Positions 3,467-51,309 of a stretch of DNA of 64,000 nt are shown here, in pieces. A model generated the notes under the pieces. That model ran no database searches, was not told the origin of the DNA, and saw nothing but the letters and a program-made list of their open reading frames with translations. The translations under genes and the position numbers were made by a program. Positions within the stretch are counted from its first letter, which is position 1. Each line of letters begins with the position of its first letter. The stretch comes from Balneola sp. (GTDB lineage Bacteria > Bacteroidota > Rhodothermia > Balneolales > Balneolaceae), in contig JANQSE010000002.1 of NCBI GenBank assembly GCA_028284195.1, positions 310,001 through 374,000 on the forward strand, given 5' to 3'.

Positions 3467-4213
3467 TTAGGTTTTCAGTTTATTGAATAGGCGTTTTACC
3501 TGGCCGTCGCCAAAGCCATAAATCGGTTCACGATGATGGAATTTTTGAAAAACAGGCTCGAATTTTTCATCGCCCAATTCATTCATAATTTCCAGTAAAA
3601 CTTTATCGGGCCGTCCTAATTCTTCATTTTCAGGAAACCGGTCAGAATTTGCCTGGATGGTGTTTTTGAGGAAAGGAAATTTTGTAAGAAGAGGCTGGGC
3701 TTTTTCCATAATCAATTGATGTTTTCCTTGCTGATAAAGGGACCAAAGAGACGTAAAAATCGCAAGCTCGTCTTGAGATAGAGAAGTGCGCACCTCGTAT
3801 GCATTTACAAGACCTTCGGTTGAGAGGCCTCCGAACCCATACTCAAGATCGGTTTCCGGTCTTATAAGATAGATGTTTTCAATGGTTGTATGATTGGATA
3901 TCAAACTGCAAACAAACCATAGGTTGACCTGGCAAAACAAATCGTCCTCAAACCATAAGTTAACGGATGTATTTTCGGCAACCTGTAAGAGTTTGTTGAA
4001 CTCGGAAGCGATGTCTGCTGAATAATCGAGCTCGAGATCAGGATAGATGCTGCTTAGATAATGTTCACGAGTCGCAAAAAACTGATCTAAATCAGAACCG
4101 GTTACAGGGCCATCCAAAAGGCATTCACGAGCCACAATTAACTTTCCCTGAAGTGATTGAGGAAATTGCTCTTTTAGTGCATCGCCATTTAATACGTGGA
4201 TCTCTTTTCCCAT
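3467..4213 (-). CDS. DUF1835 domain-containing protein
   Basis: The 248-residue protein opens with the DUF1835 pattern: HVLNGDAL at 6-13, then a segment ending ARECLLDGPV. This family is found in Firmicutes and Bacteroidota and has no firmly known function. A leucine/arginine-rich C-terminal helical region follows and the sequence has no signal peptide or membrane segment, so it is probably cytoplasmic. It is 42 bp or more downstream of the GbsR-like gene in a run of same-strand genes. I recognise the domain but cannot assign an activity. Confidence 0.75.
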   Translation of the reverse strand: MGKEIHVLNGDALKEQFPQSLQGKLIVARECLLDGPVTGSDLDQFFATREHYLSSIYPDLELDYSADIASEFNKLLQVAENTSVNLWFEDDLFCQVNLWFVCSLISNHTTIENIYLIRPETDLEYGFGGLSTEGLVNAYEVRTSLSQDELAIFTSLWSLYQQGKHQLIMEKAQPLLTKFPFLKNTIQANSDRFPENEELGRPDKVLLEIMNELGDEKFEPVFQKFHHREPIYGFGDGQVKRLFNKLKT

Positions 4214-46039: not shown

Positions 46040-48916
46040 TTGCAGATAGATACCAGTAAAAAGTTTTTGATTAGAAGAGACAAATTAACACGTCGGCTTT
46101 ACGCCCAGGATGCCTCCATGTATCAGGAGCTCCCGAAGGGTGTCGCTTTCCCAAAATCCGGGGATGACATTCAAAAACTTGTACGAAAAGCTAATACCGA
46201 ACATTTTTCAATAACAGCCCGAAGTGCAGGTACAAGCCTTGCCGGACAGGCTACCGGTTCGGGAGTTATCATGGATGTGTCCCGGCACATGAATCAAATT
46301 CTTTCTCTGGATGCATCTTCAAAAAAGACGAACGTTCAACCCGGGGTTATCAGAGATTCTCTGAACCGGGAAGCCGCAAAATACGGGTTGCTTTTTGGTC
46401 CGGATACTTCAACCACAAACCGATGTATGATTGGAGGTATGATTGGAAATAATTCTTCGGGTTCATTTTCAATTAAATACAAAACCACGCGTGAGCATAT
46501 AAAAGAAATGGAGGTAGTTTTAGGTGATGGAAGTGTAGCCAGATTTAAGCCACTCACCAAAAATGAATTAGATAAAAAGTTAGCACTCAAAACTTTCGAA
46601 GGGCATATCTATCGAAGTATGATTGCCATTCTTGAACAGAATAAGGAACTCATTCAAAAGAGCTATCCTCATCCCGGAATCATCCGCAGAAATACAGGCT
46701 ATGCTTTAGACAGATTACTTGAGATGGAACCATTCACCAAAGGAGGAAGAGCGTTTAATTTATGCGAACTATTGTGTGGAAGTGAAGGAACCTTAGCTCT
46801 GACGGTATCGGCAACCTTAAATCTGGAGGAAAAGAGCTCAATCCAAAAACTGGTCATTCCTCAATTTGATTCTATCAACGAAGCTATGGAGGCTGCCGTA
46901 GAAGCTATTAAGTTTAATCCGAGTGCTGTAGAATTAGTAGATGATGTTATTCTGGATGCTACGAAAGCAAATCCTGAGCAAGTGCAAAACCGATTTTTTT
47001 TGGAAGGGGAGCCCAAGGCTATTCTCATTATTCAATTTGAAGGGAATAACAGCGAAGAACTGGATTCAAAAATAAGCAGCCTGGTTCAGTCGCTTAAAGA
47101 AAAAAACCTTGGGAGAGCGTATCCGTTTTTCGATGAGGGAGATAAAATGGAAAGTGTGTGGGAGCTGCGAAAGGCAGGCCTTGGTTTGTTGATGGGATTG
47201 GGGAAAGATTCCCGCTCACCAACTTTTTGTGAAGATACGGCTGTTCGTGTTCAGGATTTGCCGGACTATGTGAAGGATTTTCAGATGTTGCTTAAAAAGC
47301 ATGGTACGGATTGTGTGTTTTATGCACATGCATCAGTAGGGGAACTTCATCTTCGGCCAATGATTAACACCACCAAACCCAAAGGTATTGAAACCATGAA
47401 AGCGATGGCGGTAGATGTTGCTGAACTGGTGAGGAAATACAAAGGATCTCTTTCCGGAGAACATGGTGACGGCCGGGCCCGATCGCCTTATATAGAAAAA
47501 GTACTGGGCAAAAAAATGATGCCTGTTCTAAAACAGGTTAAAGAGGTTTGGGATCCTGAATACATTTTCAATCCTGGAAAAATAATTAACGCTAAACCCA
47601 TAGAAACGGATCTTCGATTTTCGCCCGGATATTATTCTGAGCCGGTTAAGGCTACGTTTCATTGGAGAAAAGAAGGCAGTTTTAATGATGCGTTGGAGCT
47701 ATGCAATGGAGCCGGAGTTTGCCGGAAACTTGCAGAAAGCGGCGGTACTATGTGCCCTTCGTATATGGCTACTAAAGACGAAAAAGACTGCACAAGGGGG
47801 AGAGCAAATGTATTCCGTCAGGTGTTTGAAGGGAATAATCCGGAACGGTTTAAGTCCGATGATTTGAAAGAAGCACTGGATTTGTGCCTGAGTTGCAAAG
47901 CATGCAAAAGTGAATGCCCTGCAAATGTAGATATGGCAAAGATGAAAGCGGAGTTCATGAATGAGTGGAATAAGAATAATCCTTCCTTGAGCACTTATTT
48001 CTTTGCGTATGCTCCAAAGCTGTATCCTTTAGCAGCTTTATTCCCGTCCTTTTCGAACTGGATAATTCAGAGAGGGCTTGTAAAGAATATGCTTCAGAAA
48101 GTTGCAGGAATCTCAATTCAGAGAACGTTACCTCTTTTTGCATCTCAAACGTTTAAAAGATGGTGGAAATTCCGCAATCATTTTCAAGCCGCCAAAAAAG
48201 TGGTGCTGTATGTAGATACGTTTACCAGTTATTATGATCCTGAAAATGCAATTGCCGCTGTTGGTGTTTTAGAAAAGCTTGGGTTCGGGGTTTTAGTTAC
48301 AAACATTAAGCAGCTGGGCAGATTCCATCTTTCAAAAGGTTTGTTGACAGAAGCAAAAAAAATTGCACATTCAGTAATTGATGAATGGAAGCAGTATGCT
48401 GTTCAGGGAATTCCAATAATAGGTTTGGAGCCTTCCGAAATTCTTACTGCGAAAGATGAGTTTCTGGATTTGTGTGATAATTCTAAGTTGGAAGATGCGG
48501 AACTGGTAGCGAAACATTGCTATACGTTCGAAGAGTTTTTGTATGAAAACCTCGAATCCATTCCTCAAATACAAAATAACGATGGATTTAATGTTGTTGT
48601 TCATGAACATTGCCATGCTAAGGCATTAAGTAAAAAAGGCCTGTCAAAAAAGGTTTTGGAAAAGTTTGGATATGAAGTAGAAGTACTGGATTCCGGTTGC
48701 TGTGGTATGGCCGGAAGTTTTGGTTATGAAATCGGTAAAGTTAATATCTCAATGGAAATAGGAAACCAAAGGCTTTTTCGGGCAATTAATCGCAGTTTCA
48801 ATCGTAATAAAATCTGTGCATCGGGTTTCTCTTGCAGGCATCAGATTTTTGATGGAACGGGTAGAAAAGCGAGCCATATTGCACCATTGATTTATGAGAA
48901 GATTGAAACAAGTTAA
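46040..48916 (+). CDS. FAD/Fe-S oxidoreductase, GlcD-GlcF/D-lactate dehydrogenase type fusion
   Basis: A 958-residue fusion starting at TTG 46040. The N-terminal FAD_binding_4 domain has ARSAGTSLAGQATG and the flavoprotein C-terminal domain includes HASVGELHLRP and GEHGDGRARS. The second half carries two 4Fe-4S sets: CNGAGVCR with TMCPSYMAT, and CLSCKACKSECPAN, then the CCG-type motifs EHCHAK and DSGCCGMAGSFGYE. This matches the large bacterial FAD/Fe-S oxidases of 2-hydroxy acids (D-lactate, glycolate or related) that deliver electrons to quinones. Which 2-hydroxy acid is used is not decided by motifs. Its neighbour downstream is a secreted haem protein. Confidence 0.92.
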   Translation: MQIDTSKKFLIRRDKLTRRLYAQDASMYQELPKGVAFPKSGDDIQKLVRKANTEHFSITARSAGTSLAGQATGSGVIMDVSRHMNQILSLDASSKKTNVQPGVIRDSLNREAAKYGLLFGPDTSTTNRCMIGGMIGNNSSGSFSIKYKTTREHIKEMEVVLGDGSVARFKPLTKNELDKKLALKTFEGHIYRSMIAILEQNKELIQKSYPHPGIIRRNTGYALDRLLEMEPFTKGGRAFNLCELLCGSEGTLALTVSATLNLEEKSSIQKLVIPQFDSINEAMEAAVEAIKFNPSAVELVDDVILDATKANPEQVQNRFFLEGEPKAILIIQFEGNNSEELDSKISSLVQSLKEKNLGRAYPFFDEGDKMESVWELRKAGLGLLMGLGKDSRSPTFCEDTAVRVQDLPDYVKDFQMLLKKHGTDCVFYAHASVGELHLRPMINTTKPKGIETMKAMAVDVAELVRKYKGSLSGEHGDGRARSPYIEKVLGKKMMPVLKQVKEVWDPEYIFNPGKIINAKPIETDLRFSPGYYSEPVKATFHWRKEGSFNDALELCNGAGVCRKLAESGGTMCPSYMATKDEKDCTRGRANVFRQVFEGNNPERFKSDDLKEALDLCLSCKACKSECPANVDMAKMKAEFMNEWNKNNPSLSTYFFAYAPKLYPLAALFPSFSNWIIQRGLVKNMLQKVAGISIQRTLPLFASQTFKRWWKFRNHFQAAKKVVLYVDTFTSYYDPENAIAAVGVLEKLGFGVLVTNIKQLGRFHLSKGLLTEAKKIAHSVIDEWKQYAVQGIPIIGLEPSEILTAKDEFLDLCDNSKLEDAELVAKHCYTFEEFLYENLESIPQIQNNDGFNVVVHEHCHAKALSKKGLSKKVLEKFGYEVEVLDSGCCGMAGSFGYEIGKVNISMEIGNQRLFRAINRSFNRNKICASGFSCRHQIFDGTGRKASHIAPLIYEKIETS

Positions 48917-48936: not shown

Positions 48937-49602
48937 ATGAAAAAACAGATACTACTTTTCACTGTGTGTTTATGGTCTGTTCCTTTGCTTGCTCAAATTG
49001 ACTACGTAAGCGAGATACAACCCATCTTTAATAGCAACTGTAATGCCTGCCATTCTGCAGGGCAGAATAGTTTTAATTCCAGTTCTTACAGTGCTGTTAT
49101 AGCCAGTACAAGCCCCTCAAATAGATATAACAGAAACCATGTTATCCCGAATGATGCTGCTGGAAGCCCTTTGGTTGATAAAATTGAGCCTAACCCTCAA
49201 TTTGGAAGCAGAATGCCACGGGGCGGGCAGCTTACCACAGATGAAATTAACAAAATAAAGCAATGGATTAATGAAGGAGCACAAGAGCAGGTTTCTACTT
49301 CGAATGAAAATGATGCGTTGAATCCAACACAATTTAAACTACTGGGTAATTACCCAAATCCGTTTAACCCAAGTACTACCATTCGATTCCAGATACCGGT
49401 TAGTTCCGAATTTCGGATAACAATTTATAATGCGAATGGTCAACTGGTAAATACAATATCGGGGAATGCTTCTGCAGGCTTGAAGGAAGAAACAGTAGAT
49501 TTATCCAGGCAACCCAGCGGTATTTATTTTTACAGAGTCAGAGCAGTAGCCAACGGAAGGTTTTCCCTTGTCGGTTCAGGAAAAATGACACTGGTTAAAT
49601 AA
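48937..49602 (+). CDS. T9SS-exported monohaem c-type cytochrome-like protein
   Basis: 221 residues: signal peptide (about 1-20, ending LLAQ), a small cytochrome c-like domain with C35-N-A-C38-H39 haem site and a likely axial Met93 in SRMPRGG, and a C-terminal type A T9SS sorting domain (about 128-221; NYPNPFNPSTTIRFQIP through KMTLVK). The haem part resembles planctomycete-type single-haem domains that also use a late Met. The combination suggests a surface-exposed electron carrier or sensor. It follows the FAD/Fe-S dehydrogenase by 20 bp and its stop abuts recN. Confidence 0.85.
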   Translation: MKKQILLFTVCLWSVPLLAQIDYVSEIQPIFNSNCNACHSAGQNSFNSSSYSAVIASTSPSNRYNRNHVIPNDAAGSPLVDKIEPNPQFGSRMPRGGQLTTDEINKIKQWINEGAQEQVSTSNENDALNPTQFKLLGNYPNPFNPSTTIRFQIPVSSEFRITIYNANGQLVNTISGNASAGLKEETVDLSRQPSGIYFYRVRAVANGRFSLVGSGKMTLVK

Positions 49603-51309
49603 TCAATTTCTGTGTGTTGATTTCTGAATAAGTTCTTCTGCGCTTTTAAGAGAGTTTTCAGAAATCTCAGCTCCACTCATCAGGCTGGCCACTTCGTGGA
49701 CATGCTCTTCGTTTGAAAGCGAACATATTCTTGTAATAGTTCTTTCTTCTAACTCCTGCTTATCCACTTTATAATGATGGTGCGCCTGGCTTGCAATCTG
49801 TGGCTGATGGGTAATAGCAATTATCTGACATTGAGAAGATAGTTTCCTCATTGCCCGGCCTACTTTTTCAGATACTTCGCCACTTATGCCGGTATCTATT
49901 TCATCGAAGATCATAACGGGCAGGTTTTGTTCTTTTGCGAGGATGGATTTCAGAGCAAGCATTACCCGGCTTATTTCCCCACCGGAAGCAATCTTAGCCA
50001 AAGGCTTTGGTTCCTCACCTTTGTTGGTAGAAATAAACAAGCGTACTTCATCGCAGCCACTTTCAGTACATTCTATAAGCTCACCATTTATTTCGATCCA
50101 GCCACTTGGAGAGCTTAACCAGGACACCGAAACTTCAAAGTTTGCGTGATTGATTCCAAGTTTGCCTAATTCATTTTCAATGTTTTTAGAGAGCTGGTTC
50201 CCGATCTCAATTCTGGTGTTGTGTAAATCAACAGCTGTATCAGAAAGTACTTTTTGTTGCTCGTTTATTGATTTCTCTAATTTCTCGATTTCCAGATCAA
50301 AATTATCCGCAATAGAAAGTTCTGCTTTTACCTCGTTCAGATAATGAATTAACTCCGGTATATCCCGCTGATACTTTTTTTGGAGCCGGTTCAGCTCACT
50401 TTGGCGCTGGCGCAATTCTTCCAATCTGGAAGGATTGAATTCTATGCTGTTACGATATCGTTCCGCAAAAAGAATAGCTTCATTAATACTTACACGGGCA
50501 GCATTAATCTCTTCCAGATAAGTAGCAAACTCCGGTTCAATCCGGGCTAAATCTTCAAGTGTGATTTTTAACTGATTGAGTAACTGAGAAAGACTGACAT
50601 CATCCCCATCATTGATATCAGCAATCAAAGCTGCTTTTTGGTCCAGCACCTCAGCATTGTCCAGCAAATTCATTTCAGAAAGTAGTTCTTTCTCTTCATC
50701 CTCTGAAAGTTTTGCTTGTTCTAACTCGTTTACCTGAAAGCGGTATAATTCTGTTTTTTCCTGAAATTCTTTTTCTCTTTTTTTGAGCGACCCAAGTTCC
50801 TGCTTCAAAGCCTTCATAGCTGCGAACTTTTTCTGATACGCTTTGAGCTTAGGTTCAATTTCGCCAAAACCATCAATAACGCTCAAATGATTTTCTTCCT
50901 TCAATAGTAGTTGGTGATCGTGTTGCCCATGTAAATCTACCAGCTGATCTCCTACTGATTTCAAAACAGCGATATTTACAGGAGTATCATTGATAAAAGC
51001 CCGGCTTCCTGTTTGTCGGATCTCTCTTCTTAAAACAAGGTATTCACTGAACTCAATTTCCTGCTCCTGAAGTAAGGTTTTTAGCTCAGTATTTTCAAAA
51101 GACTTGATGGTGGCTTCTGCGATTGCCCGGTCTGCACCCTGACGTATCACTTCCGTATCAGCCCGCTCACCCAAAATCATATTTAAAGCACCAATAACAA
51201 TCGACTTTCCGGCACCCGTTTGCCCTGTTAAGATATTGAGGCCCTCTCCGAAGCTGACTTCAAGTTCATCAATTAAGGCAAAATTTTTTATATAAAGAGA
51301 ATTTATCAT
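49603..51309 (-). CDS. recN: DNA repair protein RecN
   Basis: RecN is an SMC-like ATPase acting early in double-strand break repair. The 568-residue protein has NLYIKNFALIDEL-like N-terminus, Walker A GQTGAGKS (29-36), the LASGGEISRVMLALKS signature and the MIFDEIDTGISGEV Walker B, with a long coiled coil between. Its length is normal. It ends base-to-base against the cytochrome gene (stops at 49602 and 49603) with no spacer, so the two must share their termination region. Confidence 0.96.
   Translation of the reverse strand: MINSLYIKNFALIDELEVSFGEGLNILTGQTGAGKSIVIGALNMILGERADTEVIRQGADRAIAEATIKSFENTELKTLLQEQEIEFSEYLVLRREIRQTGSRAFINDTPVNIAVLKSVGDQLVDLHGQHDHQLLLKEENHLSVIDGFGEIEPKLKAYQKKFAAMKALKQELGSLKKREKEFQEKTELYRFQVNELEQAKLSEDEEKELLSEMNLLDNAEVLDQKAALIADINDGDDVSLSQLLNQLKITLEDLARIEPEFATYLEEINAARVSINEAILFAERYRNSIEFNPSRLEELRQRQSELNRLQKKYQRDIPELIHYLNEVKAELSIADNFDLEIEKLEKSINEQQKVLSDTAVDLHNTRIEIGNQLSKNIENELGKLGINHANFEVSVSWLSSPSGWIEINGELIECTESGCDEVRLFISTNKGEEPKPLAKIASGGEISRVMLALKSILAKEQNLPVMIFDEIDTGISGEVSEKVGRAMRKLSSQCQIIAITHQPQIASQAHHHYKVDKQELEERTITRICSLSNEEHVHEVASLMSGAEISENSLKSAEELIQKSTHRN

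Follow-up and report, generated by a model that had tools for sequence, protein, structure and literature searches.

A monohaem cytochrome c gene with a T9SS sorting domain in Balneola sp. and its candidate link to a carrier–YceI–DUF5777 operon

Closest described systems

FoxE, the putative iron-oxidising cytochrome of phototroph SW2 (5MAB), and PccH of Geobacter sulfurreducens (4RLR) resemble, by predicted fold, a small cytochrome encoded in the window, i.e. the whole 64,000-nucleotide stretch of Balneola sp. DNA analysed here. FoxE is the best structural match of the modelled cytochrome domain in VIA-align (Z 11.8, rmsd 2.4, 97 residues), a likeness of predicted fold only to a protein whose iron oxidation is itself putative, and it differs in being larger and in having no tag for the type IX secretion system (T9SS). 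PccH has the monohaem c-type fold in common with the window domain (Z 6.7, rmsd 3.5, 82 residues), and the window protein has a weak Pfam match to PF22297; to our knowledge, PccH has no T9SS domain.

In MtrCAB and other porin-cytochrome conduits, multihaem cytochromes inside a barrel deliver electrons to a surface cytochrome. Transfer of electrons over the outer membrane is the concept they share with the arrangement proposed below, which differs in its single-haem carriers and in its DUF5777 barrel. CjX183/Cbp2D of Cellvibrio japonicus carries no T9SS tag that we know of. According to the available part of its description, its small class I c-type cytochrome is extracellular and is joined with a YceI-like domain and a CBM in one protein acting on LPMOs in vitro (PMC8981238), whereas the window's genome has no AA10 LPMO. 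YceI is also coupled to an envelope redox protein in BcnA–LcoA, where LcoA is an inner-membrane b-type cytochrome (b561), and neither a barrel nor T9SS is described with this pair in the portion of the source available (PMC9113575).

The window protein shares with T9SS type A cargo a sorting domain above the cut-offs of TIGR04183 and PF18962, and its genome encodes PorU. The accessible text of a review of T9SS effectors does not contain the word 'cytochrome' (PMC10202324), and the titles and abstracts consulted in the literature searched (subscription journals excluded) describe no T9SS-exported monohaem cytochrome; DUF5777, and multiheme cytochromes with T9SS in Bacteroidota, likewise gave no match in that literature. 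Taken singly, neither a class I monohaem cytochrome nor a T9SS tag is unusual; their combination as a conserved T9SS-linked family, with its tie to a carrier–YceI–DUF5777 module, was not encountered in the publications searched.

Gene and predicted protein

The gene (48937..49602, plus strand) encodes a T9SS-tagged monohaem cytochrome c of 221 aa, as identified from the ORF, domain searches and conservation; a promoter scan returned one weak site only, below the number obtained in shuffled sequence. The product begins with a predicted signal peptide of signal-peptidase-I type without lipobox (residues 1–19, ...LLA|Q; 48937..48993, plus strand), at whose end A19 is nearly invariant and Q20 invariant among 30 tailed relatives. 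The class I cytochrome c domain follows (residues 20–118; 48994..49290, plus strand), delimited by alignment A2, the AlphaFold2 model and fold matches. It contains the conserved haem attachment motif CNACH (residues 35–39; 49039..49053, plus strand) and, within RMPRGG, the RMP motif, where Met93 (49213..49215, plus strand) is the presumed distal haem ligand. A linker (residues 119–132; 49291..49332, plus strand), with pLDDT under 50 at residues 120–128, leads to the T9SS type A sorting domain (residues 133–221; 49333..49599, plus strand). Both PF18962 (44.5 bits versus a cut-off of 27) and TIGR04183 (44.4 bits versus 23) match residues 139–203 of this C-terminal domain, well over both curated cut-offs. 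The full-length model (pLDDT 82.8) comprises two confident domains joined by a floppy linker; a PorU structure is its top match in the PDB, over about 100 columns.

Evidence for the haem domain

Pfam scores of the cytochrome domain just miss their cut-offs (Cytochrom_C 20.8 versus 21.3; CBB3 21.7 versus 27), and further tests of the domain were therefore required. A tailed relative in L120 lies above the Pfam cut-off (Cytochrom_C 23.6, PSCyt1 26.7). Cys35, Cys38, His39, Met93 and Pro94 are invariant in 72/72 family proteins, which are the tblastn matches at E ≤ 1e-13, and a chance CxxCH artefact is rejected on this conservation. Searching the PDB by sequence with the window protein gave weak cytochrome c6 matches and repeat-driven WD40 matches to the tail. 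Because Ig-like matches of the tail filled the fold search with the full-length model, the cytochrome domain was modelled separately; on 67 aligned domains, AlphaFold2 returned a model with pLDDT 96.0 and pTM 0.88. The best 26 Foldseek matches of this model in the PDB are all c-type cytochromes or haem c domain proteins (best E 1.1e-3), and VIA-align also superposes it on the cytochrome domain of hydrazine synthase (Z 8.7, rmsd 2.6, 93 residues). The domain is thus predicted to adopt a cytochrome c fold and, judging from conservation and modelling, is a genuine class I monohaem c-type cytochrome domain with Met93 as its putative distal ligand.

The sequence-only reading of this DNA had described a monohaem CNACH cytochrome with a later Met ligand, fused to a full T9SS domain. 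Both parts hold, as the ORF is as described, the ligands are invariant, the fold model matches, both sorting-domain models are passed, and PorU and Ccm-like genes occur in the genome. It had left to later comparison whether the CxxCH domain aligns with cytochromes, as it does by Foldseek and VIA-align on the predicted fold, and whether other proteins join CxxCH to a T9SS domain, of which 30 tailed relatives, all with CxxCH, are now collected in alignment A1.

Distribution and two forms of the family

The cytochrome domain is present in 52/97 genomes comprising the window's own genome and its relatives, and its profile matches 199/394 genomes drawn from the phylum. Two forms are distinguished, namely a tailed form of about 216–240 aa with a signal-peptidase-I type start and a T9SS domain, and an untailed form of about 120–180 aa, in which a lipobox-like motif is recognised by pattern in 35/37 proteins. 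The 37 untailed proteins are divided between CxxCH (18) and Cx4CH (19). The window's genome encodes one gene of each form, the untailed one lying on another contig (L130, G000:C4:548000–564000), where a lipoprotein with CGGSACH (Cx4CH) is followed by YceI and DUF5777. This paralogue and its operon had been overlooked by the sequence-only reading. In the cytochrome-domain tree the tail changes seven times on the best tree, one change being forced by starred branches, with too few columns to settle a single gain of the tail. A distant tailed relative (L290, about 3730–4200) has CGCH replacing CxxCH, which represents either an unusual haem site or a loss of function.

Relation to the type IX secretion system

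The window's genome encodes a full PorU sortase (1021 bits), 24 sorting domains and two adjacent Cytochrom_C_asm ORFs, here called CcmC- and CcmF-like on the basis of protein size and gene order. At the 23 other sorting-domain places of this genome (20 stretches), CxxCH occurs in 0/17 other tailed ORFs recognised by a motif script.

In the subset of family genomes with a completeness of 95% or more, 22/25 of those with PorU and 0/15 of those without it have the tailed form (Fisher 2e-8, a test that ignores descent), while the untailed form is found in 22/25 and 10/15, respectively (p 0.13). Across all 97 genomes, a PorU match is absent from 2/30 tailed genomes; both are MAGs, at 90% and 88% completeness, and both contain many sorting-domain candidates. 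A recN tree built for 48 genomes has four changes of the tailed state and five of PorU; with starred branches, independent pairs (n=4) have the tailed form and PorU changing the same way in 1.2 and opposite ways in 0.0 cases on average. After correction for descent the association, with about four changes behind it, is not significant; the link is as expected, yet built on few independent events.

One genome of genus g4 (G010) has neither PorU nor either cytochrome form and carries two DUF5777 operons, with a cupredoxin and a Rieske protein; its congeners (G028, G044, G049, G053 and G056) have PorU and both cytochrome forms.

The carrier–YceI–DUF5777 operon

The untailed gene is followed by YceI (about 181 aa) and then DUF5777 (about 285 aa) in 31/32 untailed loci, where L135 is the exception and the distant L051 is left out of the 32. 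In the window's genome, Pfam assigns these two genes with 56.9 bits (YceI, one of three in the genome) and 264 bits (DUF5777, 'membrane bound beta barrel'), and the operon and the tailed gene lie on different contigs. By presence, DUF5777 accompanies the untailed form in 41/41 genomes; tailed genes without a DUF5777 match occur in 3/30 genomes, all MAGs at 84–90%.

Reading of 80 distinct DUF5777 loci (L227 and L270 being the same place) places YceI just upstream of DUF5777 in 72. The carrier slot is occupied by a monohaem cytochrome in 44, a share inflated because 31 of these loci entered the set for containing the cytochrome, by a cytochrome plus a cupredoxin in one, and by a Rieske protein (16) or a cupredoxin (8) in loci picked by DUF5777; none was found in 11, five of which are near a contig edge. 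Six carrier examples were submitted to Pfam, which returned Rieske for four (37.7–46.1 bits) and plastocyanin/azurin-type domains for two (52.2 and 55.2 bits), and the remaining Rieske and cupredoxin carriers were assigned by phmmer against these examples. As a Rieske protein or a cupredoxin replaces the cytochrome ahead of YceI–DUF5777 in related genomes (L219, L220, L222, L223, L224 and L226), this position is taken as an electron-carrier slot, and the interchange of three unrelated one-electron carriers argues for electron transfer rather than for haem as such.

The tailed form joins the carrier, YceI and DUF5777 only in G053 and G056 (L123 and L120), where it is the fourth gene after untailed cytochrome–YceI–DUF5777, at distances of 3 and 18 bases from DUF5777. 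Elsewhere (L228, G085:C227:1–5000), an untailed cytochrome, DUF5777, a 4Fe-4S protein and NrfD stand in a row. A 4Fe-4S protein with NrfD is typical of quinol-linked inner-membrane complexes, and this row is possibly a quinol-linked version of the module.

Proposed role and competing explanations

The best explanation, given about an even chance of being correct, is that the window protein is a T9SS-exported one-electron carrier acting, outside the cell, as partner to a redox module of the envelope. Sequence, ligand conservation, predicted fold, operon, carrier interchange and the presence of T9SS and Ccm genes are observed, whereas haem loading, export, the direction in which electrons flow and their final acceptor are inferred. 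In this proposal the chain would cross the inner membrane by Sec, the Ccm system would attach haem in the periplasm, where the small cytochrome domain would fold, and T9SS would carry the holo-protein over the outer membrane by means of its C-terminal domain. From T9SS biology, PorU should then cut off this domain, leaving a product bound to the surface or free. The untailed lipoprotein would be the carrier of an envelope module with the YceI lipocalin and the DUF5777 outer-membrane barrel. Such a module would take reducing equivalents out of the quinone pool and deliver them to the outer membrane or across it, with the tailed cytochrome as its external partner in T9SS-bearing species. YceI proteins bind polyisoprenoid quinones. 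Several observations count against the proposed role, namely the separate contigs of the tailed gene and the operon in the window's genome, the few changes behind the PorU link, the tailed genes without a DUF5777 match and the CGCH of L290; moreover, a single haem alone gives no long-range conduction. The passage of a folded cytochrome through T9SS had been called notable beforehand; export is retained here as the proposed route, while the surprise is weakened, since the available part of a review counts folded proteins among what T9SS transports through the outer membrane (PMC9251779).

The wider proposal, that a cytochrome, Rieske protein or cupredoxin with quinone-binding YceI and the DUF5777 barrel forms an unrecognised outer-membrane redox module leading electrons to the surface, and that in T9SS-bearing genomes a dedicated monohaem cytochrome is exported, folded and haem-loaded, as the terminal external carrier, is tentative and rather doubtful. 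If it held, single-haem proteins placed by T9SS could wire the surface of bacteria that have no multihaem nanowires, a role open to testing would emerge for DUF5777 and YceI, and a cofactor-loaded redox cargo would be demonstrated for T9SS. Tailed and untailed paralogues, together with species without T9SS, provide ready-made comparisons.

The main rival of the carrier interpretation is an antioxidant module comparable to BcnA–LcoA, in which a YceI-bound quinol would be kept reduced and would quench lipid peroxyl radicals of the envelope, while the exported cytochrome would scavenge radicals or peroxide at the surface. YceI is indeed the most constant partner in the DUF5777 loci (72/80), and a lipocalin is linked to a redox protein in BcnA/LcoA of Burkholderia, although the available section of that source names neither an outer-membrane barrel nor a T9SS tag as part of the BcnA system (PMC9113575). 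No cytochrome b561 was noticed beside the carrier–YceI–DUF5777 operons, and this rival is considered unlikely.

A role as redox partner of a secreted enzyme, by analogy with the CjX183 domain of Cellvibrio Cbp2D reducing LPMOs in the medium, appears less probable still. The analogy draws on CjX183 being a small class I c-type domain whose secreted parent protein also contains a YceI-like domain, as given in the accessible part of the source (PMC8981238), but no secreted enzyme is constant next to the tailed gene, and an AA10 LPMO partner is rejected, as a search covering the AA10 family found no LPMO_10 in the window's genome.

Neighbouring genes and remaining explanations

The tailed gene is preceded by a gene for a YdiJ/GlcD-like dehydrogenase with FAD, 4Fe-4S and CCG domains (46040..48916, plus strand; domain searches), whose stop codon is 20 bases from the cytochrome ATG in the window. 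It is followed by a convergent recN-like gene (49603..51309, minus strand; conserved synteny), which we take to be recN. The dehydrogenase lies immediately upstream on the same strand in 16/23 tailed family genomes and one gene away in 1/23, an arrangement favouring the earlier suggestion that it could donate electrons directly to the cytochrome. Against this donor, the enzyme is of cytoplasmic type, in a different compartment from the cytochrome; it is missing beside the cytochrome in 3/23 genomes where the cytochrome stays next to recN (G012, G030 and G039), the tailed gene is relocated to another operon in 2/23 (G053 and G056) and lies elsewhere in 1/23, and recN synteny is equally constant. 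The dehydrogenase is not needed for the presence of the cytochrome, and direct coupling, being backed by a neighbour kept in part of the tailed loci only, is rejected as highly improbable; the quinone pool might still connect the two indirectly.

Least probable of all is export of a degenerate cytochrome domain as an apo-protein without attached haem, which the CGCH of the one distant tailed relative and the Pfam scores slightly under cut-off would favour, and against which stand the two Cys, the His and the Met invariant in 72/72 proteins and the CcmC- and CcmF-like genes of the genome.

Arrangements in other genomes

Distant relatives present further gene orders. In L299 (G161), a Rieske gene is followed by one for a 224-aa protein that has no Pfam match and then by YceI and a tailed cytochrome gene, while a Neomarinimicrobiota contig (L051) carries a tailed gene followed by an untailed gene, a gene for a 384-aa CSLCH protein without Pfam match, a CytoC_RC match with two haem motifs and DUF2231. 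The same cytochrome domain occurs within open frames of approximately 800–930 aa (G047:C50, G054:C1, G034:C159 and others), which are possibly planctomycete-type PSCyt1 proteins. One tailed cytochrome gene (L162, G075:C126, 1–7547) lies beside genes resembling those of a phage-tail-like contractile system, where the sheath-like start was judged by eye. Proteins of 369–394 aa in L292, L295 and L298 (without Pfam match in L292 and L298) contain an N-terminal CQACH or CQSCH and adjoin both a further short cytochrome and lipoprotein-like cytochromes, which in L292 include a TIG domain, an order of genes that may represent another conduit-like arrangement.
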